Below are positions 3,557 to 59,816 of a stretch of 64,000 bases of DNA, piece by piece. Source of the DNA: Bolinopsis microptera (taxonomy: Eukaryota; Ctenophora; Tentaculata; Lobata; Bolinopsidae); assembly GCF_026151205.1 (NCBI RefSeq), contig NC_087077.1, forward strand, positions 20,853,510 through 20,917,509, read 5' to 3'. The notes under the pieces were generated by a model that was given only the letters and a program-made list of their open reading frames with translations, ran no database searches and was not told where the DNA came from. Each line of letters starts with the position of its first letter. Position 1 is the stretch's first letter. The translations under genes and the position numbers were made by a program.

Positions 3557-4145
3557 TAGGAGCCTATTATTAGCCCTCACCCTACCCCTTCGGTAGGGGG
3601 CTGGTGGTTATTGAGTGGTCCTAGGAGCCTATTATTAGCCCTCACCCTACCCCTTCGGTAGGGGGCTGGTGGTTATTGAGTGGTCCTAGGAGCCCTTTAT
3701 TAGCCCTTACCCCTACCCCTTCGGTAGGGGGCTGGGTGGTTATTGAGTGGTCCTAGGAGCCTATATTAGCCCTCACCCTACCCCTTCGGTAGGGGGGCTG
3801 GTGGATATGAGTGGTCCCTAGGAGCCTATTATTAGCCCTTACCCTACCCCTTCGGTAGGGGGCTGGTGGTTATTGACTAGGAGCCTATTATTAGCCCTCA
3901 CCCTACCCCTTCGGTAGGGGGCTGGTGGTTATTGACTAGGAGCCTATTATTAGCCCTCACCCTACCCCTTCTGTAGGGGGCTGGTGGGTATTGAGTGGTT
4001 AGGAGCCTATTATTAGCCCTTACCCTACCCCTTCGGTAGGGGGGCTGGGGTTATTGAAGTGGGGTCCTAGGAGTCTATTATTAGCCCTTACCCTACCCCT
4101 TCGGTTAGGGGGGCTGGTGGTTATTGAGTGGTTGGGGTTCGGTCT
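3557..4145. repeat. 63-bp minisatellite, left block (about 9 units)
   Basis: Tandem units of about 60-64 bp containing TAGCCCTCACCCTACCCC followed by TTCGGTAGGGGGCTGG. This is the reverse orientation of the large array at 15.55-27.88 kb. Units vary in length through indels. It ends in the marker GGTTCGGTCTGCTAACTG, which also occurs, inverted, at 20560-20594, 26984-27018 and 27575-27610. Confidence 0.9.
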
Positions 4146-4153
4146 GCTAACTG

Positions 4154-4524
4154 GGGGGGGGGGGGGGGGGTACCAATGGCATAAAATGGCATAAATGGCA
4201 TACGTTTTATGGCATAATATAAATGGCATAATATTATGGCATAATATAAATGGAAATTTTTATTGGCCAATTCTCCATTTATGCATGAATTTAGGTCTTC
4301 ATATTTGACTTTAAAATTCGCAAATTATTATTAGTACTTGAATAAGAGACATGTTTCATGCTTTATAAACGCTTGGAATGATTGTTAAAGATTCATATGA
4401 CAAATAAAGAAAATAGAAATGTATTATATCAAAAATGGCATAAATGGCATACGTTTTATGGCATAAATGGAAATTTTTATTGGCCAATTCTCCATTATGC
4501 CATTTATGCCATTGGTACCCCCCC
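4154..4524. mobile_element. G-tract TIR element E1 (371 bp, non-autonomous)
   Basis: It starts with a run of 17 G and TACCAATGGCATAA and ends with TTATGCCATTGGTA and a C run, forming terminal inverted repeats. It is flanked by the direct repeat GCTAACTG at 4146-4153 and 4525-4532. The uninterrupted target occurs, inverted, in the minisatellite marker at 20560-20594, 26984-27018 and 27575-27610, so the insertion is well supported. The arms consist of 9-10 bp repeats of the type ATGGCATAA. A block around a TTTTTATTGGCCAATTCT core lies in the same orientation near both ends (about 4185-4275 and 4445-4505). There is no coding capacity. The superfamily is not recognised. Confidence 0.85.
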
Positions 4525-4796
4525 GCTAACTGCTTACCTTCTCTGTGAAACTTAGGAAGTTGGATTGAAGACTGCAGATATTCCCTTAAAGTTGACATAC
4601 AATATATTTAAAAATTCAATGAAATTTTAAAATGTTTTTTTTTTGAAACGTGATCTCTTTGCTTAGGTTAATTTGTACGGTGAAAGTCACAAATCTTCAT
4701 AATACACATTTGGTGATGAAATTCTTTAAAAGCCTGTTTACACAAATTCTCAATACAGTATCTATATGTATTAGCGAAAAAGTTAGCAAATAAATC

Positions 4797-4797
<1 letters not shown>
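4525..4797. other. Unannotated spacer between two transposons
   Basis: AT-rich sequence holding the second target-site copies of E1 (4525-4532) and the first of E2 (4792-4797). Nothing else was recognised. Confidence 0.5.
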
Positions 4798-4828
<31 letters not shown>

Positions 4829-5768
4829 ACCATATTAAAGTATATTAAAGTATATCCCCGGGTCAAAATCGGAAAAAATCCTACATTTTAATATATTTTA
4901 TATACCTACAATTAGAAGATTTATATTCTTCGTTAAGATTTACATGATGAACTATATTTTTCACTCAGATTCGCAAGATAAGCCTGTTTTAGGAATAGTA
5001 CATGAATTTCCATCCAGATTGGTCAAAAATTGGCTGAGCTATGAGCTTTAAAAAATATACCCATATTTGGGCATACGCTTTTGCCCAAATTCGCTTTTGC
5101 CCAAATTCGATAAAATTTCAATATGTTTTAATGAGACTAACTCTATGTGAAAGATATAACTCAGTGTTTGTTGAATATAGTGGATACTAAGTAAAAAGAC
5201 CTCCATGAACAAAATTGGGAAAATTGTACATAATTAATTGACAATATAACTTTATGTTATTTGCTTAAACTGTTTAGGATGCAACCTAATGTCATGATCT
5301 TTTTGAACTTATTAGCAATTAGACTGTTAGCTCGCTTCATAAGCATGTCATCTTCGTTCCAAAACTTTTTATGTCCTATGCATACAATCCTTGATAGTTG
5401 TCTTGATCTAGTATCTTTGTTTCACACAATAGAGCATAAGTTTTGTGGTTTATCCACTGGGCTTAGAGTTTGTGTTTAAGCTACCAAATTTTATTATTAT
5501 TATTTATAATATCTCGGTTCGGAATACTAGCCAAAATGACTTCATTAAAATTGAAATAACTCCATCAGTTTTCAATATTTTTTCAAGAACTTTTTGGAAT
5601 CGATTAAGAATTGCATTTCAAGCTTATTTTGGGCAACAATTTTTGATGTAGACCTCCGAGGAGATAAATATATATTAAAGTGTATTGTAGGTATATTAAA
5701 GTATATTAAAGTATATCCCCGGGTCAAAATCGGGAAAAATCCTACATTTTAATATACTTTAATATGGT

Positions 5769-5809
<41 letters not shown>
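4798..5809. mobile_element. G-tract TIR element E2 (about 1.0 kb, non-autonomous)
   Basis: A G run of about 28 followed by GCAACCATATTAAAGTATAT starts the element. The inverted form of the same sequence plus a C run of about 39 ends it. The direct repeat AAATCT flanks it at 4792-4797 and 5810-5815. The arms are decamer repeats of the type TATATTAAAG. A module containing CCCCGGGTCAAAATCGG is present in the same orientation at about 4855-4900 and 5715-5757. The interior has no convincing gene, only short AT-rich open frames. It has the same plan as E1 and E3 but different arm sequences. Confidence 0.8.
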
Positions 5810-5811
<2 letters not shown>

Positions 5812-5857
5812 ATCTACAAGTCTCTATCAATCTCCGCGGCTGATATCAGCTAAATTT

Positions 5858-7300
5858 CTATTGTTCAAGTTGTTCACCTGTCATTTCCCTCTTGATGCCG
5901 TATATTACACCGGTTGTAACCAATAGTGCGGTTTGCATCATAATTACAACTAAACCCGAACTTTCGTGATATGCATATTGAACAGCCACAGAAGCAATTA
6001 TACTGGCTAAGCTGTAGCAACTGTTCATTATCGAAGATGTAAATGATCTGACGGATGTTGGAAAATATTCGGAAGCAAGGACGAAGTTTAACCAGCCCAT
6101 TACGGCTAGTGTACCTCTGGTTATAAGGAGGACCGTCAACTTCAAAGCGGAAGGTATGCAGAAGTAAAGTGGGATGAAAACAAAAACTGGAATAAGGCTG
6201 GAGATAAAAAACAATTTTCTTCTCCCTATCTTATCAACGAGAAGCAGTCCTATGGCTACAGCAATTGGGTCAGCTAGTCCGATGACCCCAAGATCAAATA
6301 AAACAGAATTATCAAATGAGCAGGACTGGGAAGACTGTTTCTGTGTGATTTTCACCGTATGGCAAGGACCTTCGTCCATAAAGAGAGGAGCTGCATAAAT
6401 AAGACCCATATAAACTGACTGTCCCGTTAATGTTATGATCACAAGCTTCCAAAAATCTGATAGATACCCTGTTGTCCTCAAAATTTGATAACTTTGGTAA
6501 AAGGTTGTTATTTCCAGTTCCTCAGAATTCTTGTCCTGGGTAATTTCAACCTCCCCCAGTTCTTTAGTGCAGTTCAAGTTGGCTAGTGTTTTCAAAGTTT
6601 CTTGAGCATTTTCCAATTTACCTATCCGGACATCATGCCTGGGAGACTCTCTGATTATTAAGAGAAGGACTAAGATTGGTTAACAGAGAAGTGCAATGAT
6701 GATCAAATAACCCCGCCACCCATATGGTCCAAGCGTAAGATAAGCCAATGCACCGCTAAGTGCTGTCCCAATACCCCAACCAATTCCAACTGATGACATG
6801 CTGAGTGACCTGTATTTTATCGTTGGTATTTCTGCTGAATAGGTTGCCGCAGGACCAGCTCCAATGCCCTCACTTGCCCCAACAATGGCCCTGCAGATAA
6901 GTAACTGCCAAAGATTCCCAGCGAGCCCTGACAAGAGTCCTGCTGAAAGCATGGAGATGGTTGTGATGATTAATAGTTTCCTTCTTCCAAATCTATCGCC
7001 TAAATGAGATAGAAGGAAGCCGAATATTGTACAAGTAACCATACTGATAATTTGAAGTGCTGAAGTCCAGAAAGTTGACAGGCCCCACTCGCATTTCAAA
7101 ATCAAGCTTACTACTGACATTACAGCAACTTCGGCTCCTTCCATAAGCAAGAAGCAATATGGCCCTAAGCCGTACAAAACCGAACCAAATCCACATCCCA
7201 ATCGTTCTATAGCCTCTCCTATGGTAAGTGACTCTCTTGAAGACGGTTTCCCTTCAATTGCAGCTGTCAGCAGAGTTTTTTCGTCATTTTCCGATTCCAT
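5858..7300 (-). pseudogene. MFS transporter, SVOP/SV2-like, with one in-frame stop
   Basis: One continuous frame of 480 codons without introns, from ATG at 7298-7300 to the stop at 5858, interrupted only by TAA at 6680-6682 (codon 207). Both sides of the stop are in the same frame and read as one protein. The N-terminal half has the MFS loop signature GDRFGRRK at residues 101-108. Just after the stop comes LLLIIRESPRH, resembling the P-E-S-P-R segment of the SV2/SVOP/SLC22 group. The C-terminal half carries the second-half signature DKIGRRK and several hydrophobic segments. Members are plasma-membrane or vesicle transporters of small organic ions; the substrate cannot be predicted. It sits antisense in what would be a NUP155 intron. 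The stop may be a real inactivating mutation or a base error. The absence of introns suggests a retrocopy or an intronless family member. Confidence 0.75.
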
Positions 7301-9322: not shown

Positions 9323-11062
9323 GTTACGAGAGATCTGTCCTAATCTGTACGGAGCAGCTGACCTGAAAACTACAAAAGCGAACGAACTTTTACAAAGCGC
9401 AAAACATCAGACCAACAAAACGGAACAAACAACTATGCTTCATAAGAGTCTTGAACTTTTCAAGTAAAGCAACCATAATTCATCAATATTACAATAAATT
9501 TATTCTTTCTGATGAGACAAATTGTAGCCTGAACAGCATGCCAGATGATATTATTTGTTTTAAATATTTTTCCTAAATGATTGGTCCCCCCAAATAACCC
9601 ACTTATTTGTTCAGGCAGGTGACAGTTAACCCACGTACTTGTTCAGGCAGGTGACAGTTAACCCACTTATTTGTTCAGGCAGGTGACAGTAAACCCACTT
9701 ATTTGTTCAGGCAGGTGACAGTTAACATAGACCTGGGTGGTATTTGCAACCAATACGCCAGTGTGGGTTTCTATGAGGGTATCGTGGAGCTGTGTCTGGC
9801 AACAGCAGCTGAGCAGGATAACCAGAACTTAGCTGTTCATCTTACCCATACTGGTCAGTCAGTCAGTCAGTCAGTCAGTCAGTCAGTCAGTCAGTCAGTC
9901 AGTCAGTCAGTCAGTCAGTCAGTCAGTCAGTCAGTCAGTCAGTCAGTCAGTCAGCCAGCCAGCCAGTCAGTCAGTCAGTCAGTCAGTCAGTCAGTCAGTC
10001 AGTCAGTCAGTCAGTCAGTCAGTCAATCAGTCAGTCAGTCAGTCAGTCAGTCAGTCAGTCAGTCAGTCAGTCAGTCAGCCAGCCAGCCAGCCAGTCAGTC
10101 AGTCAGTCGATCAGTCAGTCAGTCAGTCATCTAGTCAGTCAGTCGATCAGTCAGTCAGTCAGTTTTATTACAGGTGAAGATGCAGGAGAACAGTTGTTGG
10201 TGGCTAGAAGGCACTGCTACACTTGTATTACAAACACACTAAACAATCTGCTAGCAATGTCCCAGGGCGCTAGTGGTATTCACAACAACACAGGTCAGAA
10301 TACAAAACATAACCCCTTGCTAAACTCGGTGTTGAAGAATTATATTATGTTACTAGATAACTAACATTTTAACCAGACGACTCAGTATCTTCAACCGTTG
10401 GGGTCGTGAAATGAACCCTATCAGTTGTAATCAGATTCCTAAATTCGCAAACGTCAGGCGTCAAGGTAAGCAGCGCGGCAGAAGCAGAGAAGCAGTTGAC
10501 GACCATGCTGGACTTCTGTTACCGGAGCAATGACGAGGTATTCCACGTCTTTCTGTACGAGTGGCTGATTGGAAACGGGCTTGTTAACCGGCTCCTTGCC
10601 ATTAAGAGCAGTTACTTGGAACCGTATCTGAGGAGAGCTGCTAAACAGCCTGATAACCTACAGATTCTGTAAGTGGTATACTTAGTTTCTAAACCATTGA
10701 CGGAGGGGGGGGGGGGGGGGGCACTGACGATAGCTGCAGTTTATTTAGTTATATCGTTCATCCAAACTTGAGACTCTTGGAAGAGCAATTGTCGTTGGTT
10801 TTCGGGGATCCTGATTTATCAAGTAATCAGAGTTTCATCGTTCAGTACAAATTCTGTACATGACATGATTATGACATGTTGCAGGGATATAATGTGGAAG
10901 TATTACGAGAAAGAGAAGAACTACAGTGCAGCTGCCAGGATCCTAGCTAAACTAGCAGACCGGGACCGGGACACTGATAACTTTACCCTGTGGGACCGTA
11001 TTGACTACATATCACGTGCCATACTGTGTGCTAAAGCGTGTAGTACTTCGCTCAATAACGAG
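9323..11062 (+). CDS. NUP155: NUP155, middle/C-terminal exons (five exons)
   Basis: Nup155 is a scaffold nucleoporin of the nuclear-pore inner ring; these exons encode part of its alpha-solenoid. The exons are 9323-9463, 9711-9853, 10174-10293, 10458-10668 and 10885-11062, all with AG/GT borders and matching phases. Translated signatures fit the family: ADLKTTKANELLQ, NIDLGGICNQY then GFYEGIVELCL, LYEWLIGNGLVNRLL, SSYLEPYLRRAAK, and IMWKYYEKEKNYSAAARIL then DYISRAILCAKA. The first exon begins with the G that completes the codon left split at 28198 on the other strand. The donor at 11063 (GTGAGA) is good, but no following exon was recognised before the minisatellite, so roughly 300 C-terminal residues are missing. 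The exons are clean, unlike the left-arm copies upstream. Confidence 0.9.
9601..9728 (+). repeat. 32-bp tandem repeat duplicating a splice acceptor
   Basis: Three full copies (9601-9632, 9633-9664, 9665-9696) and a partial fourth of a unit containing ACTTATTTGTTCAGGCAGG. Each copy includes the 3' splice site TTGTTCAG and the start of the next NUP155 exon. Only the last copy (exon from 9711) continues in frame; use of an earlier one meets a stop. Confidence 0.85.
9854..10165 (+). repeat. GTCA microsatellite filling an intron
   Basis: About 77 units of GTCA with a few GCCA, GATC and AATC variants make up nearly all of the 320-bp NUP155 intron 9854-10173. The 5' splice site is the first GTCA unit, and only the last dozen or so bases (TTTTATTACAG) are ordinary intron. 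Confidence 0.95.
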
Positions 11063-13450: not shown

Positions 13451-13451
13451 G

Positions 13452-13705
13452 TAATGCCGTATGGCACATAATGCCGTAATATGGCACAGTAACGGCACAG
13501 TAATGCCGTAATATGCACAGAAATGGCCGGAATGGCACAGTGAGCCGTATTATGGCACATTCTTGGTCGTAAGGCACAGTAAATGCCGTACTAGGGCACA
13601 GGAAACGGCACAGTAATGCCGTAATGGCAACAGTAACGGCACAGTAATTGCCGTAAAATGGCACAGTAATGCCGTAATATGGCACAGAATCCGTAATGGC
13701 CGACT
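13452..13705. repeat. Imperfect repeat of about 21 bp with internal dyad (GGCACAGTAATGCCGTAATAT)
   Basis: Some twelve ragged copies built from GGCACAGTAAT and GCCGTAATAT half-units, which are partly complementary to each other. No terminal G-tract or target duplication was seen. It could be a decayed relative of the decamer-armed elements, but this is not shown. Confidence 0.6.
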
Positions 13706-15545
13706 ATGCCCCTTTTCTATCTGCAACGGGCCCTAAAGTTGTTTGATTTGAATCGGTCAGCAAATAATACAGAACTTATATAAAAGTTGGCGACAAAGAA
13801 TGGTGTTCGGCTGGCAAGTGGAATAACAAAAAGCTCAGGCTGGTTAGGACAGGCAACAATAAACAGACTTAACTGTACTAAGACTATGTGAGATTCTGAT
13901 AAGGGAAACCAGTAACATCCATGTTGGAAAACTTGGCTCTTACTCTGCCCATAAGTTGTTAAACGTATTTAACTTATTAGCTGACCTTGTTCCATGTTTT
14001 AAAAACAAAAGTTTTGACTCTGTAACACTAACACAGAACTAGCTTCGCTAGTCCTATATTCGCTCGCTTCTTCTCACTTGCATATTCAGGGAGCTTGAAA
14101 AGAGCGCCGCGCACAGGTATCGGCGACCAGGGAAACCATGCAGGACGCAAAGGATCGGAGAGGAATAACTAAAGAGTTTGTTAGCTTTCATTTTACATTC
14201 TCGCCGTATATTGTAAACTTTCTAGCTTGAAAAAGTACGTATTCATATTGTATATTACAACCCAATGTAACAAAACGAATGATAAATAGGGCCCGTCGGG
14301 GATATCATGGCTCGCTTAGAGGTTCCACATCCAGGATCTGGTAGTCCCTCATAATTCGCGGCCTCTATTATCGTCATCCCGAACACCTCTTTAAGAATTA
14401 AGGGATTGGCATGTGAAAATTTGCAGCCTTCCCGAAACTTGATAGGGTTAACGAAGTGTCGTTTACGTACACCTCAAGATCGGTACAGGGGCTGACCAGC
14501 CAGAACCCCATTGATGGTCTGAGGTCACGTGGGATTAATGACCCTGAGGTCACGTGACTACAGACGTCACCAGACCTTGTTTCACTGTTTCCCGCTCATT
14601 TGGACACGGTTGAGCTTGCATGCTTGTGAAATGTGTGTAATGTACAGCCTGTACTGTATTTATCTCCGATAAATGCCTAAAATATGTACAACAACGGATG
14701 TCAAAAAACTTCAAAAAAAAACGATATTTTCACTGGGGTGCGAGTCACAAAATATATTCTAGACATCTTTTTTAGATATCAATGTTTTATATTTGCAGTG
14801 CTAAGTTAGGTGTCATATATCGTTTAACTAGGTATTCAATTTGATCGCTCAATGTCCCCTAAGATGTGATCCTGATTCGAGCGTGCTAAATCACTCTACA
14901 CAGTCGATCTTCGAGATTATTCTAAAAGGGCCTCCGATGGTTGTAACCAACTTCAATCGAAGTATATGTCGGACGCCTGATTCCGAATCGACCCCCATAA
15001 CATAAGGTTAAAATGCTCTCCTGAAGAGATATTGGCGAAAAAAACTGTATCGATCACGTGATAAGACCGTATAAGTGCAGTTAGCCTAATTTCTCGTTAG
15101 GTTATGAGTTTCAGCAAATGTTTTTGTTTAACGATTGGTTTAGGGTTAGTGTTGGATCAGATTAGAGGGTTAGGAGTTTCGAAAAGTCGTCAGAACCACT
15201 AGAGAACGGGTTAAAAAAGTCACGGTGACAGTCGAGTGTAGAGTGATTAATCATCATCCAAGCGATTCAAATATTGATCCTTGCTAAAATTGTGCATTGT
15301 GGGTCTGTTAAAGGTCATTGCGTATGACCATGTGTAATGGTGTTATTCCACGTGCAATTTTAAAATCGGGATTTAAGTTCGTTTCATGGAAATTTTTATA
15401 AATCGGTAAAATGGAGTACGCATGAATTTGACAAAAGTCCCGTACTTTTGGTTATACATCGTGCAACACAAATTGGGTTCATGAACATGTATATAAAATT
15501 TGCCCCCTTTTCCCCCTACGAAGGGGTTGGGTGAGGGTAATTGGG
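13706..15545. other. Featureless stretch
   Basis: No gene, RNA or transposon ends recognised. Two short copies of GAGGTCACGTG occur near 14520-14570. Confidence 0.45.
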
Positions 15546-16806
15546 CCCCAACCACCAAAAACCCCCCCCAGCCCCCTACCGAAGGGGTAGGGTGAGGCTA
15601 ATAATAGGCTCCCAACCACTCAATAACCACCAGCCCCCCTACCGAAGGGTAGGGTGAGGGCTAATAATAGGCTCCCAACCACTCAATAACCACCAGCCCC
15701 CTACCGAAGGGGTAGGGTGAGGGCTAATAATAGGCTCCCAACCACTCAATAACCACCAGCCCCTACCGAAGGGGTAGGGTGAGGGCTAATATAGGCTCCC
15801 AACCACTCAATAACCACCAGCCCCCTACCGAAGGGGTAGGGTGAGGGCTAATAATAGGCTCCCAACCACTCAATAACCACCAGCCCCCTACCGAAGGGGT
15901 AGGGTGAGGGCTAATAATAGGCTCCCAACCACTCAATAACCACCAGCCCCCTACCGAAGAGGTAGGGTAAGGGCTAATAATAGGCTCCCAACCACTCAAT
16001 AACCACCAGACCCCTACCGAAGGGGTAGGGTGAGGGCTAATAATAGGCTCCCAACCACTCAATAACCACCAGCCCCCTACCGAAGAGGTAGGGTAAGGGC
16101 TAATAATAGGCTCCCAACCACTCAATAACCACCAGACCCCTACCGAAGGGGTAGGGTGAGGGCTAATAATAGGCTCCACTCAATAACCACCAGCCCCCTA
16201 CCGAAGGGGTAGGGTGAGGGCTAATAATAGGCTCCCAACCACTCAATAACCACCAGACCCCTACCGAAGGGGTAGGGTGAGGGCTAATAATAGGCTCCCA
16301 ACCACTCAATAACCACCAGCCCCCTACCGAAGAGGTAGGGTGAGGGCTAATAATAGGCTCCCAACCACTCAATAACCACCAGCCCCCTACCGAAGAGGTA
16401 GGGTGAGGGCTAATAATAGGCTCCCAACCACTCAATAACCACCAGACCCCCTACCGAAGGGGTAGGGTGAGGGCTAATAATAGGCTCCCAACCACTCAAT
16501 AACCACCAGCCCCCTACCGAAGGGGTAGGGTGAGGGCTAATAATAGGCTCCCAACCACTCAATAACCACCAGACCCCTACCGAAGGGGTAGGGTGAGGGC
16601 TAATAATAGGCTCCCAACCACTCAATAACCACCAGCCCCCTACCGAAGAGGTAGGGTGAGGGCCAATAATAGGCTCCCAACCACTCAATAACCACCAGCC
16701 CCCTACCGAAGGGGTAGGGTGAGGGCTAATAATAGGCTCCCAACCACTCAATAACCACCAGCCCCCTACCGAAGGGGTAGGGTGAGGGCTAATAATAGGC
16801 TCCCAG
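15546..16806. repeat. 63-bp minisatellite, block 1
   Basis: About 20 tandem units containing CTCAATAACCACCAGCCCCC, TACCGAAGGGGTAGGG and TGAGGGCTAATAATAGG. Each unit has the inverted pair CCCTACC/GGTAGGG around GAAGG. The G-rich strand has three G runs per unit. Because 63 is divisible by 3, one minus-strand frame is open for long distances. The block is interrupted at 16807 by a LINE. Confidence 0.95.
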
Positions 16807-18946
16807 TAGGACATTCTCTTCCCCAATCTAGTCGATGTGATTTTGATATGGAGCTGGAGGACTCCTCGCCCTCCGAAATTGCTGAAATCATACATGATCT
16901 TAAGAACAAATCGACTTCAGATATGAATATACAGCCTCTTAAAAAGGTTTGCAATGTGCTGTCTCCAGTAGTTAATCACCTGATCTCACACTCCCTTCAC
17001 GAAGGAGTATTCCCCGAAAAGCTCAAACTTGCTAAGGTTATCCCACTCCATAAAGGAGGATCGCGCAGCGAAATTACAAACTACAGACCAATCTCACTTT
17101 TGTCCTGCTTCTCAAAGATATTCGAAAAAATAATGCATGCACGTTTAGTAAAGCACCTAAAATCACGTAATATTCTATATGCATCGCAATTTGGTTTTAG
17201 ATCGGGTCACAGTTGTGAACATGCGTTGCTTGAAGCTCAGTTTAACATACATAAAGCTCTAGAAAGGAAGCAAGTGTCAGCATTACTGCTTCTTGACTTC
17301 TCCAAGGCGTTTGACCTAGTAGACAGTGAGATACTGCTACATAAGCTGGAGCACTATGGTGTAAGAGGCCTTAGCTTATCCTGGTTTGAGTCTTATCTAA
17401 CTAACCGGAAACAGTATGTTCACGTCAACGGTTGCAGTTCAGAAAAAATGGGATTGGAACATGGAGTTCCTCAAGGGTCCATTCTTGGTCCTATATTGTT
17501 CATTATTTACATAAACGACCTTGCAAATGTAAGCGATATAGCCCATTATATTTTCTTCGCTGATGATGCAAACATCATCGTTTCTGCCGACACGTACACT
17601 GAACTGAACATGCGTGCAAACAGAGTATTAAATACTGTACAGACATGGGTTAAAAACAACGGTCTTAAACTTAATGTAGGAAAAACTAAATACATGATAT
17701 TCACTAACAGATTACCAGAGGATATAAATATTAGTATAGAAGGACAGCGACTAGTGAAAAGTGAACATGAACGATTTTTAGGTGTCATTATTGACTCAAA
17801 ACTTAGCTGGAGCCAGCACATTAAACAGTTAAAGACTAAAATATCCAGAAATGCAGGCGTAATGATGAAACTTAAAAGTTCCATTCCGAATAAAGCTCAA
17901 AAAATGCTATACAATAGTTTAATTCAATCTCACCTGTATTACTGCGCTACTGTTTGGGGTACTAAATCTTTAAATTCCATTCAGTCTTTATTCTCTGCTC
18001 AAAAGAAAGCTATTCGCGCCACTGATTCAGAATATCATAACTATTTTTACGACAAAGAAAAACGTAAACTACCATCTCACACAAAATCCATCTTCAACAA
18101 AATAGGAATTTTGGCTCTTCCTAATCTCATTGCTAAAAGCTGTCTAACTTTGATGCACAAGGTTTATATGGGAGTAGCACCATCGAGTATCTGTAGTATA
18201 TTTGAAAAATCACCGCTTAGACAAACGGAAAGGAGAAATCCAAAGTATTTTGAAATTAAGTTCAACAGATTACGGATCACCGATTATAGCATCTCTAACG
18301 TAGGACCACGATTATATAACAACACGATAAACGAAATAAACAAAATCCTTCCCTTCAACGTACCTAAGTTACAAGATAAGTTTATTAATGCATACAAGGA
18401 CAACATTGTACGTTACTTACTGGACAAACAAAAACTTGACCTAGAAAACCTTTCGTGGACGGAAAAGAACTTTGTCCTTTACAACTTTTAAACAAAATAT
18501 TAGCAAAATATAACAGCTGTAAGAATCCTAAACGTTAGTGCAGTCAAATAAATGAACTGCGATAATGCATTTGACAGTCAGTCACTGCAATTTATTCTGC
18601 AACTTATTTTTCAATTTTCACTGCCACACTTAGGCTTATCTTGCCTACACATTTAAAAAAAAACGAAATTCCTTGCGCACCGCGTACTAAAATTACTTGG
18701 ATTTCTACCGCTTTGATAAATGACTACATGAAGATGGGGAGTTAATATTTTTGATTTATATAATATAGATTATTCATTCTTTAGTGTAGATTAACTTTAT
18801 TTTTATATATTTTACCAAGTGTGAAGGATCAACCATACGTTATTGATATTTTTGAAATATTTAATGATACATTGATATAATAATAAATGATTGTAATATT
18901 TTTATTGAGGCACATGCCACCCCATCGCGGGTTTACTACTACTACT
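16807..18946 (+). mobile_element. 5'-truncated non-LTR retrotransposon (Jockey/CR1-type RT), copy 1
   Basis: An open frame to 18491 encodes a reverse transcriptase; its first eight or so codons belong to the flanking minisatellite. Motifs include NYRPISLLSCFSKIFEK, LLLDFSKAFDLVDS, GVPQGSILGPILFIIYINDL and the catalytic FFADD. The endonuclease and ORF1 are absent, so the copy is 5'-truncated within ORF2. About 450 bp of 3'UTR ends in a short TAC repeat (18935-18945) at the minisatellite border. The RT frame has no stop from entry to end. No clear target duplication was found; a few bases of the 63-bp unit are missing at the junction. Confidence 0.9.
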
Positions 18947-21900
18947 CAATAACCACCAGCCCCCTACCGAAGGGGTAGGGTGAGGGCTAATAATAGGCTC
19001 CCAACCACTCAATAACCACCAGCCCCCTACCGAAGGGGTAGGGTGAGGGCTAATAATAGGCTCCCAACCACTCAATAACCACCAGACCCCTACCGAAGGG
19101 GTAGGGTGAGGGCTAATAATAGGCTCCCAACCACTCAATAACCACCAGCCCCCTACCGAAGGGGTAGGGTGAGGGCTAATAATAGGCTCCCAACCACTCA
19201 ATAACCACCAGCCCCCTACCGAAGGGGTAGGGTGAGGGCTAATAATAGGCTCCCAACCACTCAATAACCACCAGCCCCCTACCGAAGGGGTAGGGTAAGG
19301 GCTAATAATAGGCTCCTAATAACCACCAGCCCCCTACCGAAGGGGTAGGGTGAGGGCTAATAATAGGCTCCCAACCACTCAATAACCACCAGCCCCCTAC
19401 CGAAGGGGTAGGGTGAGGGCTAATAATAGGCTCCACTCAATAACCACCAGCCCCCTACCGAAGGGGTAGGGTGAGGGCTAATAATAGGCTCCACTCAATA
19501 ACCACCAGCCCCCTACCGAAGGGGTAGGGTGAGGGCTAATAATAGGCTCCCAACCACTCAATAACCACCAGCCCCCTACCGAAGGGGTAGGGTGAGGGCT
19601 AATAATAGGCTCCCAACCACTCAATAACCACCAGCCCCCTACCGAAGGGGTAGGGTGAGGGCTAATAATAGGCTCCCAACCACTCAATAACCACCAGACC
19701 CCTACCGAAGGGGTAGGGTGAGGGCTAATAATAGGCTCCCAACCACTCAATAACCACCAGCCCCCTACCGAAGGGGTAGGGTGAGGGCTAATAATAGGCT
19801 CCCAACCACTCAATAACCACCAGCCCCCTACCGAAGGGGTAGGGTGAGGGCTAATAATAGGCTCCCAACCACTCAATAACCACCAGCCCCCTACCGAAGG
19901 GGTAGGGTGAGGGCTAATAATAGGCTCCCAACCACTCAATAACCACCAGCCCCCTACCGAAGGGGTAGGGTGAGGGCTAATAATAGGCTCCCAACCACTC
20001 AATAACCACCAGCCCCCTACCGAAGGGGTAGGGTGAGGGCTAATAATAGGCTCCCAACCACTCAATAACCACCAGCCCCCTACCGAAGGGGTAGGGTAAG
20101 GGCTAATAATAGGCTCCCAACCACTCAATAACCACCAGCCCCCTACCGAAGAGGTAGGGTGAGGGCTAATAATAGGCTCCCAACCACTCAATAACCACCA
20201 GCCCCCTACCGAAGGGGTAGGGTGAGGGCTAATAATAGGCTCCCAACCACTCAATAACCACCAGCCCCCTACCGAAGGGGTAGGGTGAGGGCTAATAATA
20301 GGCTCCCAACCACTCAATAACCACCAGCCCCCTACCGAAGGGGTAGGGTGAGGGCTAATAATAGGCTCCCAACCACTCAATAACCACCAGCCCCCTACCG
20401 AAGGGGTAGGGTAAGGGCTAATAATAGGCTCCTAGGACCCCACTCAATAACCACCAGCCCCCTACCGAAGGGGTAGGGTGAGGGCTAATAATAGGCTCCC
20501 AACCACTCAATAACCACCAGCCCCCTACCGAAGGGGTAGGGTAAGGGCTAATAATAGGCTCCTAGGACGAGCAGTTAGCAGACCGAACCCCAACCACTCA
20601 ATAACCACCAGCCCCCTACCGAAGGGGTAGGGTGAGGGCTAATAATAGGCTCCCAACCACTCAATAACCACCAGCCCCCTACCGAAGGGGTAGGGTGAGG
20701 GCTAATAATAGGCTCCCAACCACTCAATAACCACCAGCCCCCTACCGAAGGGGTAGGGTGAGGGCTAATAATAGGCTCCCAACCACTCAATAACCACCAG
20801 CCCCCTACCGAAGGGGTAGGGTGAGGGCTAATAATAGGCTCCCAACCACTCAATAACCACCAGCCCCCTACCGAAGGGGTAGGGTGAGGGCTAATAATAG
20901 GCTCCCAACCACTCAATAACCACCAGCCCCCTACCGAAGGGGTAGGGTGAGGGCTAATAATAGGCTCCCAACCACTCAATAACCACCAGCCCCCTACCGA
21001 AGGGGTAGGGTGAGGGCTAATAATAGGCTCCCAACCACTCAATAACCACCAGCCCCCTACCGAAGGGGTAGGGTGAGGGCTAATAATAGGCTCCCAACCA
21101 CTCAATAACCACCAGCCCCCTACCGAAGGGGTAGGGTGAGGGCTAATAATAGGCTCCCAACCACTCAATAACCACCAGCCCCCTACCGAAGGGGTAGGGT
21201 GAGGGCTAATAATAGGCTCCTAATAACCACCAGCCCCCTACCGAAGGGGTAGGGTGAGGGCTAATAATAGGCTCCCAACCACTCAATAACCACCAGCCCC
21301 CTACCGAAGGGGTAGGGTGAGGGCTAATAATAGGCTCCCAACCACTCAATAACCACCAGCCCCCTACCGAAGGGGTAGGGTGAGGGCTAATAATAGGCTC
21401 CCAACCACTCAATAACCACCAGCCCCCTACCGAAGGGGTAGGGTGAGGGCTAATAATAGGCTCCCAACCACTCAATAACCACCAGCCCCCTACCGAAGGG
21501 GTAGGGTGAGGGCTAATAATAGGCTCCCAACCACTCAATAACCACCAGCCCCCTACCGAAGGGGTAGGGTGAGGGCTAATAATAGGCTCCCAACCACTCA
21601 ATAACCACCAGCCCCCTACCGAAGGGGTAGGGTGAGGGCTAATAATAGGCTCCCAACCACTCAATAACCACCAGCCCCCTACCGAAGGGGTAGGGTGAGG
21701 GCTAATAATAGGCTCCCAACCACTCAATAACCACCAGACCCCTACCGAAGGGGTAGGGTGAGGGCTAATAATAGGCTCCCAACCACTCAATAACCACCAG
21801 CCCCCTACCGAAGGGGTAGGGTAAGGGCTAATAATAGGCTCCCAACCACTCAATAACCACCAGCCCCCTACCGAAGGGGTAGGGTGAGGGCTAATAATAG

Positions 21901-23230
21901 GCTCCTAGGACCCCACTCAATAACCACCAGCCCCCTACCGAAGGGGTAGGGTGAGGGCTAATAATAGGCTCCCAACCACTCAATAACCACCAGCCCCCTA
22001 CCGAAGGGGTAGGGTGAGGGCTAATAATAGGCTCCCAACCACTCAATAACCACCAGCCCCCTACCGAAGGGGTAGGGTGAGGGCTAATAATAGGCTCCCA
22101 ACCACTCAATAACCACCAGCCCCCTACCGAAGGGGTAGGGTGAGGGCTAATAATAGGCTCCCAACCACTCAATAACCACCAGCCCCCTACCGAAGGGGTA
22201 GGGTGAGGGCTAATAATAGGCTCCCAACCACTCAATAACCACCAGCCCCCTACCGAAGGGGTAGGGTGAGGGCTAATAATAGGCTCCCAACCACTCAATA
22301 ACCACCAGCCCCCTACCGAAGGGGTAGGGTGAGGGCTAATAATAGGCTCCCAACCACTCAATAACCACCAGCCCCCTACCGAAGAGGTAGGGTAAGGGCT
22401 AATAATAGGCTCCCAACCACTCAATAACCACCAGACCCCTACCGAAGGGGTAGGGTGAGGGCTAATAATAGGCTCCCAACCACTCAATAACCACCAGCCC
22501 CCTACCGAAGAGGTAGGGTAAGGGCTAATAATAGGCTCCCAACCACTCAATAACCACCAGACCCCTACCGAAGGGGTAGGGTGAGGGCTAATAATAGGCT
22601 CCACTCAATAACCACCAGCCCCCTACCGAAGGGGTAGGGTGAGGGCTAATAATAGGCTCCCAACCACTCAATAACCACCAGACCCCTACCGAAGGGGTAG
22701 GGTGAGGGCTAATAATAGGCTCCCAACCACTCAATAACCACCAGCCCCCTACCGAAGAGGTAGGGTGAGGGCTAATAATAGGCTCCCAACCACTCAATAA
22801 CCACCAGCCCCCTACCGAAGAGGTAGGGTGAGGGCTAATAATAGGCTCCCAACCACTCAATAACCACCAGACCCCTACCGAAGGGGTAGGGTGAGGGCTA
22901 ATAATAGGCTCCCAACCACTCAATAACCACCAGCCCCCTACCGAAGGGGTAGGGTGAGGGCTAATAATAGGCTCCCAACCACTCAATAACCACCAGACCC
23001 CTACCGAAGGGGTAGGGTGAGGGCTAATAATAGGCTCCCAACCACTCAATAACCACCAGCCCCCTACCGAAGAGGTAGGGTGAGGGCCAATAATAGGCTC
23101 CCAACCACTCAATAACCACCAGCCCCCTACCGAAGGGGTAGGGTGAGGGCTAATAATAGGCTCCCAACCACTCAATAACCACCAGCCCCCTACCGAAGGG
23201 GTAGGGTGAGGGCTAATAATAGGCTCCCAG
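18947..23230. repeat. 63-bp minisatellite, block 2 with higher-order markers
   Basis: Around 65 units. Shortened variant units (GGCTCCTAATAACC, GGCTCCACTCAATAACC, GGCTCCTAGGACCCC) and the marker GAGCAGTTAGCAGACCGAAC at 20560-20594 occur at reproducible spacing and recur 6,424 bp later, showing a higher-order organisation. Confidence 0.95.
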
Positions 23231-25370
23231 TAGGACATTCTCTTCCCCAATCTAGTCGATGTGATTTTGATATGGAGCTGGAGGACTCCTCGCCCTCCGA
23301 AATTGCTGAAATCATACATGATCTTAAGAACAAATCGACTTCAGATATGAATATACAGCCTCTTAAAAAGGTTTGCAATGTGCTGTCTCCAGTAGTTAAT
23401 CACCTGATCTCACACTCCCTTCACGAAGGAGTATTCCCCGAAAAGCTCAAACTTGCTAAGGTTATCCCACTCCATAAAGGAGGATCGCGCAGCGAAATTA
23501 CAAACTACAGACCAATCTCACTTTTGTCCTGCTTCTCAAAGATATTCGAAAAAATAATGCATGCACGTTTAGTAAAGCACCTAAAATCACGTAATATTCT
23601 ATATGCATCGCAATTTGGTTTTAGATCGGGTCACAGTTGTGAACATGCGTTGCTTGAAGCTCAGTTTAACATACATAAAGCTCTAGAAAGGAAGCAAGTG
23701 TCAGCATTACTGCTTCTTGACTTCTCCAAGGCGTTTGACCTAGTAGACAGTGAGATACTGCTACATAAGCTGGAGCACTATGGTGTAAGAGGCCTTAGCT
23801 TATCCTGGTTTGAGTCTTATCTAACTAACCGGAAACAGTATGTTCACGTCAACGGTTGCAGTTCAGAAAAAATGGGATTGGAACATGGAGTTCCTCAAGG
23901 GTCCATTCTTGGTCCTATATTGTTCATTATTTACATAAACGACCTTGCAAATGTAAGCGATATAGCCCATTATATTTTCTTCGCTGATGATGCAAACATC
24001 ATCGTTTCTGCCGACACGTACACTGAACTGAACATGCGTGCAAACAGAGTATTAAATACTGTACAGACATGGGTTAAAAACAACGGTCTTAAACTTAATG
24101 TAGGAAAAACTAAATACATGATATTCACTAACAGATTACCAGAGGATATAAATATTAGTATAGAAGGACAGCGACTAGTGAAAAGTGAACATGAACGATT
24201 TTTAGGTGTCATTATTGACTCAAAACTTAGCTGGAGCCAGCACATTAAACAGTTAAAGACTAAAATATCCAGAAATGCAGGCGTAATGATGAAACTTAAA
24301 AGTTCCATTCCGAATAAAGCTCAAAAAATGCTATACAATAGTTTAATTCAATCTCACCTGTATTACTGCGCTACTGTTTGGGGTACTAAATCTTTAAATT
24401 CCATTCAGTCTTTATTCTCTGCTCAAAAGAAAGCTATTCGCGCCACTGATTCAGAATATCATAACTATTTTTACGACAAAGAAAAACGTAAACTACCATC
24501 TCACACAAAATCCATCTTCAACAAAATAGGAATTTTGGCTCTTCCTAATCTCATTGCTAAAAGCTGTCTAACTTTGATGCACAAGGTTTATATGGGAGTA
24601 GCACCATCGAGTATCTGTAGTATATTTGAAAAATCACCGCTTAGACAAACGGAAAGGAGAAATCCAAAGTATTTTGAAATTAAGTTCAACAGATTACGGA
24701 TCACCGATTATAGCATCTCTAACGTAGGACCACGATTATATAACAACACGATAAACGAAATAAACAAAATCCTTCCCTTCAACGTACCTAAGTTACAAGA
24801 TAAGTTTATTAATGCATACAAGGACAACATTGTACGTTACTTACTGGACAAACAAAAACTTGACCTAGAAAACCTTTCGTGGACGGAAAAGAACTTTGTC
24901 CTTTACAACTTTTAAACAAAATATTAGCAAAATATAACAGCTGTAAGAATCCTAAACGTTAGTGCAGTCAAATAAATGAACTGCGATAATGCATTTGACA
25001 GTCAGTCACTGCAATTTATTCTGCAACTTATTTTTCAATTTTCACTGCCACACTTAGGCTTATCTTGCCTACACATTTAAAAAAAAACGAAATTCCTTGC
25101 GCACCGCGTACTAAAATTACTTGGATTTCTACCGCTTTGATAAATGACTACATGAAGATGGGGAGTTAATATTTTTGATTTATATAATATAGATTATTCA
25201 TTCTTTAGTGTAGATTAACTTTATTTTTATATATTTTACCAAGTGTGAAGGATCAACCATACGTTATTGATATTTTTGAAATATTTAATGATACATTGAT
25301 ATAATAATAAATGATTGTAATATTTTTATTGAGGCACATGCCACCCCATCGCGGGTTTACTACTACTACT
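23231..25370 (+). mobile_element. 5'-truncated non-LTR retrotransposon, copy 2
   Basis: Duplicate of the element at 16807-18946, with the same truncation point, the same 569-codon frame (23206-24915 including flanking codons) and the same TAC tail. It arose by duplication of the whole segment, not by a second insertion, because both minisatellite borders are also the same. Confidence 0.9.
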
Positions 25371-27883
25371 CAATAACCACCAGCCCCCTACCGAAGGGGT
25401 AGGGTGAGGGCTAATAATAGGCTCCCAACCACTCAATAACCACCAGCCCCCTACCGAAGGGGTAGGGTGAGGGCTAATAATAGGCTCCCAACCACTCAAT
25501 AACCACCAGACCCCTACCGAAGGGGTAGGGTGAGGGCTAATAATAGGCTCCCAACCACTCAATAACCACCAGCCCCCTACCGAAGGGGTAGGGTGAGGGC
25601 TAATAATAGGCTCCCAACCACTCAATAACCACCAGCCCCCTACCGAAGGGGTAGGGTGAGGGCTAATAATAGGCTCCCAACCACTCAATAACCACCAGCC
25701 CCCTACCGAAGGGGTAGGGTAAGGGCTAATAATAGGCTCCTAATAACCACCAGCCCCCTACCGAAGGGGTAGGGTGAGGGCTAATAATAGGCTCCCAACC
25801 ACTCAATAACCACCAGCCCCCTACCGAAGGGGTAGGGTGAGGGCTAATAATAGGCTCCACTCAATAACCACCAGCCCCCTACCGAAGGGGTAGGGTGAGG
25901 GCTAATAATAGGCTCCACTCAATAACCACCAGCCCCCTACCGAAGGGGTAGGGTGAGGGCTAATAATAGGCTCCCAACCACTCAATAACCACCAGACCCC
26001 TACCGAAGGGGTAGGGTGAGGGCTAATAATAGGCTCCCAACCACTCAATAACCACCAGCCCCCTACCGAAGGGGTAGGGTGAGGGCTAATAATAGGCTCC
26101 CAACCACTCAATAACCACCAGACCCCTACCGAAGGGGTAGGGTGAGGGCTAATAATAGGCTCCCAACCACTCAATAACCACCAGCCCCCTACCGAAGGGG
26201 TAGGGTGAGGGCTAATAATAGGCTCCCAACCACTCAATAACCACCAGCCCCCTACCGAAGGGGTAGGGTGAGGGCTAATAATAGGCTCCCAACCACTCAA
26301 TAACCACCAGCCCCCTACCGAAGGGGTAGGGTGAGGGCTAATAATAGGCTCCCAACCACTCAATAACCACCAGCCCCCTACCGAAGGGGTAGGGTGAGGG
26401 CTAATAATAGGCTCCCAACCACTCAATAACCACCAGCCCCCTACCGAAGGGGTAGGGTGAGGGCTAATAATAGGCTCCCAACCACTCAATAACCACCAGC
26501 CCCCTACCGAAGGGGTAGGGTAAGGGCTAATAATAGGCTCCCAACCACTCAATAACCACCAGCCCCCTACCGAAGAGGTAGGGTGAGGGCTAATAATAGG
26601 CTCCCAACCACTCAATAACCACCAGCCCCCTACCGAAGGGGTAGGGTGAGGGCTAATAATAGGCTCCCAACCACTCAATAACCACCAGCCCCCTACCGAA
26701 GGGGTAGGGTGAGGGCTAATAATAGGCTCCCAACCACTCAATAACCACCAGCCCCCTACCGAAGGGGTAGGGTGAGGGCTAATAATAGGCTCCCAACCAC
26801 TCAATAACCACCAGCCCCCTACCGAAGGGGTAGGGTAAGGGCTAATAATAGGCTCCTAGGACCCCACTCAATAACCACCAGCCCCCTACCGAAGGGGTAG
26901 GGTGAGGGCTAATAATAGGCTCCCAACCACTCAATAACCACCAGCCCCCTACCGAAGGGGTAGGGTAAGGGCTAATAATAGGCTCCTAGGACGAGCAGTT
27001 AGCAGACCGAACCCCAACCACTCAATAACCACCAGCCCCCTACCGAAGGGGTAGGGTGAGGGCTAATAATAGGCTCCCAACCACTCAATAACCACCAGCC
27101 CCCTACCGAAGGGGTAGGGTGAGGGCTAATAATAGGCTCCCAACCACTCAATAACCACCAGCCCCCTACCGAAGGGGTAGGGTGAGGGCTAATAATAGGC
27201 TCCCAACCACTCAATAACCACCAGCCCCCTACCGAAGGGGTAGGGTGAGGGCTAATAATAGGCTCCTAATAACCACCAGCCCCCTACCGAAGGGGTAGGG
27301 TGAGGGCTAATAATAGGCTCCCAACCACTCAATAACCACCAGCCCCCTACCGAAGGGGTAGGGTGAGGGCTAATAATAGGCTCCCAACCACTCAATAACC
27401 ACCAGCCCCCTACCGAAGGGGTAGGGTGAGGGCTAATAATAGGCTCCCAACCACTCAATAACCACCAGCCCCCTACCGAAGGGGTAGGGTAAGGGCTAAT
27501 AATAGGCTCCTAGGACCCCACTCAATAACCACCAGCCCCCTACCGAAGGGGTAGGGTAAGGGCTAATAATAGGCTCCTAGGACGAGCAGTTAGCAGACCG
27601 AACCCCAACCACTCAATAACCACCAGCCCCCTACCGAAGGGGTAGGGTAAGGGCTAATAATAGGCTCCTAGGACCCCACTCAATAACCACCAGCCCCCTA
27701 CCGAAGGGGTAGGGTGAGGGCTAATAATAGGCTCCTAGGACCCCACTCAATAACCACCAGCCCCCTACCGAAGGGGTAGGGTGAGGGCTAATAATAGGCT
27801 CCTAGGACCCCACTCAATAACCACCAGCCCTCTACCGAAGGGGTAGGGTGAGGGCTAATAATAGGCTCCTATGACGAGGATTC
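25371..27883. repeat. 63-bp minisatellite, block 3
   Basis: About 40 units, with markers at 26984-27018 and 27575-27610 and several GGCTCCTAGGACCCC short junctions towards the right end. It ends at GGCTCCTATGACGAGG, where the unique right arm of the inverted repeat begins. Confidence 0.95.
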
Positions 27884-28197
27884 AGTCCGCCAATCAGTTT
27901 ACTTAGGAGGACGGTTAAAAAGACTTCGGATAACCTCTTACATTAGATTGGTTGTATTTCTCTCGTCTTACTGATCTTATTTATTATTAATCGGTTACGA
28001 AGATAGTAAAACATACGGAACCAATTCCATTTTCAAATATAACTAAATTAAATAACTAAATCCAGCAACTATGTAGTTAAATACAATGTGACAGGAGCAC
28101 ATGTGAAGGTCGGATTTACGAAGAACCTCTCATCATAACTATAAAATACAGGATATAGTTATTAAAGACCCCCTCCCCCGGCCCCTTAAAGACCAAC

Positions 28198-31100
28198 CTG
28201 GCACTGAGGGCATCTGTCAAGTTGGAGTCTCCGAAATATCTCTCCATAAGAGCGTTGATAAGAGCTACTGTTATCTGCTTACCACTTACAACTAAATCTC
28301 TGAACGTCGTTCTGCAGAGGTCTTCTTTGATATTCTGAGATTTTGAGCGTCAGAAAGTTGTAACCTTGTTTTAGAATTGTGTATTATTGGGGGGGGTGTC
28401 ATGTCCGTCTATGTCCGCCTATGTCCTGTCCTTTTTGGATTCTATGAGACAACGGACGTGTTTTTTGGGACATTGGCGGACACGGACGGACATTGGCGGA
28501 CTTGGACGGACATTGGCGGACTCTGACGGACATTGGCGGACTCGGACGGACATTGGCGGACCCGGACGGACATTGGCGGACTTGGATGGACATTGGTGGA
28601 CATTAGCGGACATTGGTGGACATTAGCGGACAAACATTTTGAGGACTGAAGAGTACTGAAGAGTACTGAAGAGTACTGAGGAGGATGGCTAAGAAGGATG
28701 GCTGAGGAGGATGGCTAAGGAGGATGACTGAGGAGGATGACTGAGGAGGATGACTGAGAGGGAGGAGAAGGATCAGGAAGACCCAGGAGGAGGAGGACCC
28801 AGAAGGAGGACCTAGGAGTAAGGAGGAGGAGGAGGAGAACTGAGGAGGATGACTCAGGAGGAGGAGGACTGAGGAGGAGGACTGAGAAGGAGGAGGACTG
28901 AGGAGGATGGCTGAGGAGGATGGCTGAGGAGGATGGCTGAGAGGGAGGAGGAGGAGGAAGAGGACTGAGGAGGAGGAGGAGAAGGACTGAGGAGGAGAAG
29001 GAGGACCCAGGAGGAGGAGGACCCAGGAGGAGGACCCAGGAAAAGGCCCCAGGAGGAGGAGGAGGACTGGGGAGGAGGAGAACTGTTGAGGACTGATGAG
29101 GAGGACTGAGGACGAGGAGGAGGAGTAGGAGGAGGACTGAGGAGGGGAGGAGGAAGAGGACTGGGGAGGATCAGGAAGACCCAGGAGGACCCAGGAGGAG
29201 GAGGAGGAGGAGGAGGAGGACCCAGGAGGAGGAGGAGGACTGAGGAGGACTGAGGAGGACCCAGGAGGACTGAGGAGGAGGACTGACGATGACTGAGAAG
29301 GAGGAGGACTGAGGAGTACTGAGGAGGATGGCTGAGGAGGATGGCTGGGGAGGATGGCTGAGGAGGATGACTGAGGAGGATGACTGAGAGGGAGGAGGAG
29401 GAGGACTCAGGAGGAGGACTCAGAAGGAAGAGGAGGACTCAGGAGGAGGACTCAGGAGGAGGACTCAGGAGGAGGACTTAGGAGAAATGAGAAGGAGGAC
29501 TGAGGAGAACTGAGGAGGAGGAGGAGGAGGAGGACTGAATAGGAGGAGGAGAAGGAGGGGGACTGGAAGAGGACCGGGGAGGAGGAGGACTGATGAGAAG
29601 GATGAGGAGGAGGACCCAGGAGGAGGAGGACTGAGGACCGAGGATGAAGAGGAGGAGGAGGACCCAGGAGGAGGAGGACTGAGGAGGAGGACTGAGGAGG
29701 ATGGCTGAGGAGGATGACTGAGAGGGAAGAGGAGGAGGAGGAGGAGGAGGAGGACTCAAGAGGAGGAGGAGGACTGAGAAGGAGGAGGAGGAGGACTGAA
29801 TTGGAGGAGGAGGAGGGGACTGGGGGAGGACTGAGGAGGAGGATGGAGGACTGAGGAGAAGGATGAGGAGGAGGACTGAGGAGGACTGAGGACTGAGGAG
29901 GAAGAGGAGGAGGATGAAGAGGAGGAGGAGAACCCAGGAGGAGGACCCAGGAGGAGGACTCAGGAGGAGGAGGAGGACTCAATGAAACAAGAAATTTCAA
30001 TGAAACAAGAAATTTAATTTTAGCACATTTTACAGAATAAAAAGATGTAAAACAATTCATAAAATATAATGCCCATTGGGGGGGGGGAGGAGAAGGACTG
30101 TTGAGGACTGATGAGGAGGACTGAGGACGAGGAGGAGGAGTAGGAGGAGGACTGAGGAGGGGAGGAGGAAGAGGACTGAGGAAGATCAGGAAGACCCAGG
30201 GGGAGGAGAAGGAAGAGTAGGAGGAGGAAGCATCTAAATGTTATTTCCATTTTTGTCCGTTTTTGTCCATTTTTTTCCGTTTTTGTCCGCTCTATTTTTT
30301 GTCCGTTTTGAAAATATAGGGTACCGAACGGACAAAAAACATGATCCCCCTATAACAGCAAAAATTGAACATTTTATTTAGCAATTTAGGTGTCCATTAA
30401 TGTCCGCCTATGTCCGCCTATGTCCGCCTATGTCCGCCTATGTCCGTCTATGTCCGCCTATGTCCGCCTATGTCCGCCTATGTCCGTCTATGTCCGCCTA
30501 TGTCCTGTCCTTTTTGGATTCTATGAGACAAGCGGACATAGACGGACGTGACACCCCCCCCATTATTATATTATTTTATGATGAGACAAAAAATAAGTGG
30601 TAGTTACTGCTCTGTACCCTTCAGCAGACTACTAGTCTGATCGCTGTACAAGGAGATTAGTCATTCATTCCGATATGATTATTTGAAATATTATCACCAG
30701 ACTGGTGAATGTATCAAAGTTGCATGTAAAATTTACTGATAAACCCCTGATATATATATATAGCTAAAAGTTTTAACTATCGATATAAGAAGTGCAGTGA
30801 TAAATTCATAAATTGCGCGAAACAAAATTTATAAATAAAATTTAGCAGTACGTTTAAATGCTTACAAATGTGCTTTACACAATACAATATGGCGCGGAGA
30901 TCGCGCGCAAAAAACTTTCTACAACTCCGTCGACTAGACAGGAATGGTTTAAGTCATTACATAATAATTGTGATGATGCAGCGATTAAATGGTCAATGAA
31001 ACTAAATTCATATTACAGTCCAGAAAAAGTAACTGAAATTTACCATTGGAAGTCTTTCCGCAACAAGATGAAACTGGTATTCGCAAAGTTCTCTCCACAA

Positions 31101-43540: not shown

Positions 43541-43544
43541 TTAA

Positions 43545-47081: not shown

Positions 47082-47110
47082 GGGCTGACTACATTCTTTG
47101 TTACTGCTAT

Positions 47111-48067: not shown

Positions 48068-48128
48068 ATCTCCGCGTTAAGGGGCCTCAAATTATTTGTT
48101 ATATAGTAGTGTTGAAAGTATTAAAACT

Positions 48129-59787: not shown

Positions 59788-59816
59788 GGGCTGACTACAT
59801 TCTTTGTTACTGCTAT

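Follow-up and report, generated by a model that had tools for sequence, protein, structure and literature searches.

The 64-kb window analysed here is one stretch of the genome of the ctenophore Bolinopsis microptera (NC_087077.1, 20,853,510–20,917,509). It contains three insertions, designated E1, E2 and E3, each of which begins with a G-run, ends with a C-run and is flanked by a short target duplication. All three are non-autonomous transposons read on the forward strand, and in each a module is found near the two ends in the same orientation.

E1 (4153–4524) extends from an 18-base G-run (4153–4170) to a 7-base C-run (4518–4524) within an 8-bp target duplication, GCTAACTG (4146–4153 and 4525–4532). 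The last G of the left duplication is also the first base of the G-run, and the duplication measures 7 bp when that base is not counted. The left self-complementary module (4183–4284) is defined by self-alignment and by the fold of a different E1 copy, and the right module (4432–4500) by self-alignment and folding. Other E1 copies are 328–338 bp long (seven read). E2 (4798–5809) is bounded by runs of 29 Gs (4798–4826) and 39 Cs (5771–5809) and by the 6-bp duplication AAATCT (4792–4797 and 5810–5815); its modules, the left one with TATATTAAAG arms, occupy 4832–4904 and 5693–5764, both supported by self-alignment and folding. A 271-bp internal stretch of E2 (5235–5505, forward strand), with an ATT-rich tail at its end, is probably a nested insertion because ATAAT stands on both flanks; the matches listed for further copies of E2 skip it, breaking at query 437/709.

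E3 (28389–30561) has 8-base runs at both ends (28389–28396 and 30554–30561) within the 6-bp duplication ATTATT (28383–28388 and 30562–30567). Its left module segment (28401–28457) is common to the right module (30480–30537), which overlaps the end of a TATGTCCGCC array (30400–30505). The interior (28641–29977) consists of long purine-strand minisatellites, GAGGAGGACTGA-like, which reach several kb in some copies (L077–L079). Inside the runs, the inner 14 bp match in inverted orientation at 14/14 positions in E1, 14/14 in E2 and 13/14 in E3. A preliminary description of this DNA had already ascribed G/C tips, target duplications and short inverted ends to the three insertions, and this was borne out at each. 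Its spans for E2 and E3 hold as well, whereas E1 starts at 4153 rather than 4154 and the duplications are 8, 6 and 6 bp. Runs of at least 12 bases in the window comprise four of G, two of C and none of A or T. A lone run of 17 Gs lies at 10705–10721, for which the scan described below revealed no C-run counterpart in the 6 kb downstream.

Families, copy number and age

The genome searched comprises 264.65 Mb in 232 contigs, with C1–C13 measuring 15–26 Mb each and C6 carrying the window. Similarity searches were performed with E1, E2 and the left arm of E3; 40 candidates were scored per search, and window copies were counted. E1 returned 41 long matches with 40 of 448 first-look candidates scored, E2 returned 40 with 40 of 1388 candidates scored, and the E3 left arm 40 with 40 of 966 scored. 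Mean pairwise identity is 99.3% for E1 (seven copies) and 98.7% for E2 (nine trimmable copies among 29 loci), values that indicate recent spread of both.

The preliminary description had proposed to seek more copies by the plan rather than by sequence. A scan for a G-run and a C-run with matching inner ends, covering the window and 68 fetched loci, disclosed two further families of like layout, E4 (at locus L002, 1151–2826, with an E1 nested inside) and E5 (at L004, where the left tip holds a nested E1). E4 has its tip and the repeat CCAATGGCATAAA in common with E1, whereas loop and interior differ; the earlier suggestion that arm satellites are replaced or renewed while period and layout are kept gains no support from this pair, in which the arms are the shared part. 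Exact tip patterns occur genome-wide at 737 places for E3, 288 for E4 and 94 for E5, with no match to the reversed pattern that served as control for each. Facing pairs were listed for all 94 E5 tips, 100 of the 288 E4 tips and 100 of the 737 E3 tips, yielding 40, 38 and 43 pairs, respectively (121 altogether); the listed tips outside these pairs are unpaired at the exactness of the pattern.

Directly repeated, self-complementary modules

Ends were aligned in ten elements, two from each of the five families, and in 10/10 the left and right ends matched better directly than inverted, with direct scores of 87–178, inverted scores of 42–88 and a largest shuffled-direct control of 37. The scores of E3 lie closer together (direct 109 and 104, inverted 88 and 76) because its decamer arrays match in the inverted orientation as well. 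The loop-bearing segments match directly at 87–99% over 58–109 columns. Nine modules fold upon themselves, with z values of −2.5 to −6.3 against dinucleotide shuffles under RNA parameters. The self-complementary module in equal orientation at both ends, first noted in the preliminary description, is thus confirmed. As to decamer arms, when the top lag of each arm was compared with the shuffled 99% level, lag 10 ranked first, or second after 20, in 8/8 arms of E2–E5, with the E2 left arm below that level and the E4 left arm just at it. The top lags of the E1 arms are 14 and 9, for which "decamer" is a loose label.

Two modal duplication lengths and variable tip runs

Target duplications were measured in 46 copies of the five families, strictly at first, that is, without counting any run base. 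Among 25 E2 copies the duplication was 6 bp in 16, 5 bp in five, 7 bp in two, 4 bp in one and absent in one; four of the five 5-bp cases reach 6 bp with one run base. E3 showed 6 bp in 4/5 copies and 5 bp in the fifth, which becomes 6 bp with a run base, and E4 showed 8 bp in 4/4. In E1 (eight copies), 8 bp was found in 3/8 and 7 bp in 4/8, the latter extending to 8 bp with one run base; the remaining copy gave none by script, and inspection by eye, followed by location, placed ATCTTAAG on both sides of it, flanking an A-interrupted run. In E5 (four copies), 8 bp was found in 1/4 and 7 bp in 2/4, again 8 bp with one run base, and the fourth copy, masked by a nested E1, has ATTTGAAA at both flanks (by eye, then located).

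Inverted ends therefore sit within duplications of a family-fixed modal length, with exceptions: E1, E4 and E5 duplicate mostly 8 bp, and E2 and E3 mostly 6 bp. Because the runs blur the duplication length, the modes of 6 and 8 can be relied upon but individual values cannot. It is the transposase that sets the length of the duplication, and the two lengths therefore make it likely that at least two transposases stand behind the five families. E1, E2 and E3, which the preliminary description had placed in one family, accordingly part into mostly 8-bp and mostly 6-bp duplicators; they represent three families of non-autonomous DNA transposons that have spread recently, not one. E3 also exhibits a target preference, NNTATW, with T, A, T and A/T at 23, 24, 22 and 29 of 30 left flanks, which was not seen by eye among 19 listed 8-bp duplications.

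Run lengths range widely. In the 25 E2 copies, G-runs span 8–37 and C-runs 10–39 bases, and the two ends are uncorrelated (r = 0.02); E3 left G-runs have a mode of 8 (13/30) and reach 28. We infer that tip-run length drifts through replication slippage after insertion.

Solo modules and inner tips

Ordinary modules carry no G/C tips at their inner ends, and single-module elements are therefore predicted. One E5 facing pair, only 103 bp apart (L080), has both runs and is flanked by CGCCGATT on both sides, with one C of the run counted. For E1/E4, a two-tip pattern (the tip sequences at a gap of 60–90 bp, with the runs themselves outside the pattern) matched 11 places against 0 for the control. 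Eight of the 11 were fetched and read, and three proved to be solos with 8-bp duplications: L089 (TAACGTTA), L093 (AGTGGAAC) and L090 (AATACACC), in which an A interrupts the G-run. Together with L080, four single-module insertions thus possess both tips and an 8-bp duplication. Two-tip modules of E2 (10 places) and E3 (three places), counted on tip sequences alone with controls of 0, may be solos or composites.

An E1 subfamily, E1b, shows a different join, in which the interior (..ATATCAAAC) leads into an inner G-run, followed by a complete module that retains its outer C-run. E1b right ends were seen at L087, where 23 bases of E1 interior can be read, and at L092, where nine can; L088 also holds the E1b module, and the mere four bases before its run are consistent with E1b. 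In ordinary E1 loci, the interior joins the repeats directly in 8/8. Taken alone, the module resembles a minimal element. The solos could be in-place deletions or independent movers.

Search for the transposase

Eight long copies were read, three of E3, two of E5 and three of E4. Four of them (L077–L079 and L083) contain expanded or duplicated interiors, and L081 and L084 contain open reading frames (ORFs) for reverse transcriptase (RVT_1, Pfam). L082 harbours a 678-amino-acid open piggyBac-type transposase (1049–3082; DDE_Tnp_1_7, E = 4.7e-80) that is nested within a copy of E5, apparently inserted at a TTAA of the repeat array. Within the E4 copy at L085 (1772–3133, minus strand), two ORFs without a Pfam match appear reverse-transcriptase-like by eye.

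Domains of Mutator-like elements (MULEs) occur at 88 places in the genome and hAT domains at 150 or more. No MULE match lies inside the listed facing pairs of E5 (40) or E4 (38). Outside pairs, domain matches lie within 10 kb of one E5 tip (8.0 kb) and of one E4 tip that has no partner (7.8 kb), while three E3 pairs have a MULE or hAT match less than 10 kb away, the nearest at 2.0 kb; we take these near but external matches as chance.

Candidate superfamilies were compared by their duplications and termini. For the 8-bp families, hAT was rejected: the hAT duplication form, which we take to be nTnnnnAn, appeared in 3/19 duplications, with 1.7 expected by chance. For E1, E4 and E5, our best guess at the most likely enzyme is a transposase of the MULE/foldback type, because foldback MULEs combine 8–9 bp duplications with 9–15 bp subterminal repeats; these three families likewise have duplications in the 8–9 bp range and short subterminal tandem repeats, weakly so in E1. 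E2 and E3 match none of the superfamilies compared and are likely moved by a separate transposase. IS3EU and GingerRoot, in the part of PMC10045372 available to us, have 6-bp duplications and TA..TA or TG..CA termini; the duplication agrees with E2 and E3, but their termini run from a G-run to a C-run. Dada, according to the available text of PMC3706591, targets specific small RNA genes, and Dada-U1/U6 are without terminal inverted repeats, whereas E2 and E3 have inverted tips and 30/30 E3 left flanks differ from one another.

Other features of the window

Satellite arrays with 63–65 bp units (90–96% matches, Tandem Repeats Finder) lie at 3553–4132, 15512–16805, 18944–23229 and 25368–27577. 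A stretch of about 5.9 kb, comprising a satellite array and a reverse-transcriptase-like ORF, is duplicated at 98.7% identity, and reverse-transcriptase-like frames of 578 amino acids are located at 16755–18491 and 23179–24915. An element of 734 bp at 39569–40302 has inverted ends of 46 bp (98%) and encloses another inverted pair; no target duplication exceeding 2 bp was found for it. Two related non-LTR (non-long-terminal-repeat) retrotransposon-like copies occupy 42004–48076 and 56749–60791; both contain long ORFs that by eye resemble endonuclease/reverse transcriptase, and a second ORF lies upstream of these.

Proposed mechanism and alternatives

We interpret E1–E5, with a probability of about 0.6, as non-autonomous composite-like DNA transposons moved in trans by cut-and-paste transposases of the DDE type. 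The unit would be the self-complementary module, about 85–145 bp with its tips, arranged as G-run, tandem repeats of about 10 bp, asymmetric loop, complementary repeats and C-run, and a full element would consist of two directly oriented modules around a non-coding interior. A transposase is envisaged to act on the two outermost tips and to bind the repeats, perhaps about once per helical turn, while the G/C tip would be a cut site that is prone to slippage and changes in length once inserted. Full elements may have arisen as module–interior–module composites whose amplified copies then lost the inner tips, a loss that would keep the right module from leaving alone. Solo modules could originate when the two direct modules recombine or when a module moves on its own. 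The 8-bp families would use a MULE/foldback-type transposase, and the 6-bp families a different one.

A number of observations weigh against this interpretation. An autonomous partner with the same tips, which the preliminary description had proposed to look for, was not found in the eight long copies, and none of the 26 interior ORFs tried (of 50 listed) matched Pfam. Neither the 88 MULE matches nor the 150 listed hAT matches fell inside any of the 121 listed facing pairs. A MULE transposase would be expected to leave 8–9 bp duplications, and the mostly 6 bp observed led us to reject it for E2 and E3. One or two run bases would stretch 8/16 strict 6-bp E2 cases to 7–8 bp and 2/3 strict 8-bp E1 cases to 9 bp, and the E2 exceptions comprise one copy that stays at 5 bp, one at 4, two at 7 and one with none. 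The E1 arms are weakly periodic, at about the shuffled 99% level. The E1b composites were read from their right ends, and L086 and L091, which have the same sequence and lie 3 kb from each other, carry the E1b module without runs at either end. A solo with a duplication is equally expected from in-place deletion.

Ordinary foldback/MULE miniature inverted-repeat transposable elements would offer another account, in which each end is a long inverted repeat of tandem units, palindromic by accident, and the direct loops are a by-product of flips inside these palindromes, with no composite history. Animal MULEs, as described in the available part of PMC5225508, have 8–9 bp duplications, 9–15 bp subterminal repeats and heterogeneous interiors, and MULE domains occur at 88 sites of the genome. 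Random flips, however, would leave all four lineages direct (E1 and E4 taken as one) once in 16, and this account leaves unexplained the 87–99% direct match of the loop segments, the inner tip kept in E1b and the mostly 6-bp duplications of E2 and E3. We therefore regard it as rather unlikely.

The single plan across five families could also mean that all of them belong to one new superfamily whose duplications vary in length, and IS481EU, in the available text of PMC10045372, sets a precedent for several discrete lengths within a superfamily. Each family here nevertheless keeps mostly to 6 or mostly to 8 bp, and the NNTATW preference of E3 does not recur by eye in the 19 8-bp duplications, which renders this alternative distinctly improbable. 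Membership in KolobokP is very doubtful. The module–interior–module plan, the inverted tips on each repeat, the purine..pyrimidine termini and the solos are shared (PMC9587614), but KolobokP duplications are 3–5 bp against 6 or 8 bp here and its repeats about 450 or 660 bp against modules of 58–109 columns; the host table in the available text lists no ctenophore, and no coding copy was present among the loci read, although no search of the genome was aimed at Kolobok proteins. That the tips are sequencing or assembly artefacts, a doubt raised in the preliminary description, is scarcely credible in kind: the published assembly, by the available account, used PacBio reads, wtdbg and short-read polishing (PMC10232365), a type that can misjudge homopolymer length, and run lengths do range widely (8–39 in E2), so exact lengths are assembly values, but the tips sit within duplications copy after copy at independent loci in five families and at the E1b inner tip, and E3 left G-runs keep a clear mode of 8 (13/30).

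The composite interpretation of E1–E5 permits a bolder and rather doubtful proposal, namely that eukaryotes invented composite DNA transposons a second time and independently, with at least two unrelated transposase lineages in a comb jelly converging on an LTR-like cycle and on directly oriented ends that are complete mini-transposons, each a hairpin module bearing tandem arms and G/C-run tips. If true, full elements, solo modules and inner-tip composites would together represent such a cycle for DNA transposons. The KolobokP logic recurs here with duplications of 6 and 8 bp, and a single genome could suffice to rebuild the origin of composite ends, because solos and inner-tip composites coexist in it. 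The G/C tips further raise the question of how a homopolymer can be cut internally by a transposase, and the drift in tip length may mark insertions.

Comparison with known systems

The closest precedent for the plan is KolobokP. In the available text of PMC9587614, its ends are direct terminal repeats of about 450 or 660 bp with inverted tips of their own, its solo repeats are flanked by 3–5 bp duplications, its termini are purine..pyrimidine, and its authors describe such ends as unlike those of any other DNA transposon. The elements reported here resemble it in the module–interior–module order, in the inverted tips of each repeat (the inner one in E1b only), in solos with target duplications and in purine..pyrimidine termini. 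In contrast to KolobokP as described there, the modules share only 58–109 columns and are self-complementary with short tandem arms, the duplications are 6 or 8 bp, the tips are G/C-runs, and the inner tips are lost in 8/8 ordinary E1 loci.

The ends themselves recall foldback transposons. The Aedes foldback MULE Muta1, according to the part of PMC5225508 at hand, displays 9–15 bp subterminal repeats, 8–9 bp duplications and heterogeneous interiors; likewise, 8–9 bp duplications, short subterminal tandem repeats of variable copy number and heterogeneous non-autonomous interiors are found here. Direct modules, homopolymer G/C tips, solo modules and the lack of a linked MULE gene set the present elements apart from Muta1 in that account. 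Complex inverted ends with tandem repeats, non-autonomous copies and a variable middle are also shared, on the available descriptions, with the foldback elements Tetris (repeat units of about 220 bp, duplications of 8–10 bp; PMC4079207), Tm1 (units of 14 bp, duplications of 9 bp; PMC3169594) and Galileo (PMC3573991, PMC4168063), whereas the direct hairpin modules and G/C-run tips differ from Tetris and Tm1 as portrayed there. No element with homopolymer G/C tips appeared among the titles and abstract openings listed from the open-licence literature.

The preliminary judgement that the elements fit no superfamily was therefore half right: on the text available, KolobokP and foldback MULEs supply precedents, and membership in KolobokP fails. 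The layout is real and unusual, and the composite plan itself has its precedent in KolobokP. On the best reading, these elements work like a KolobokP-type composite built with foldback-type ends and are a member of neither group.

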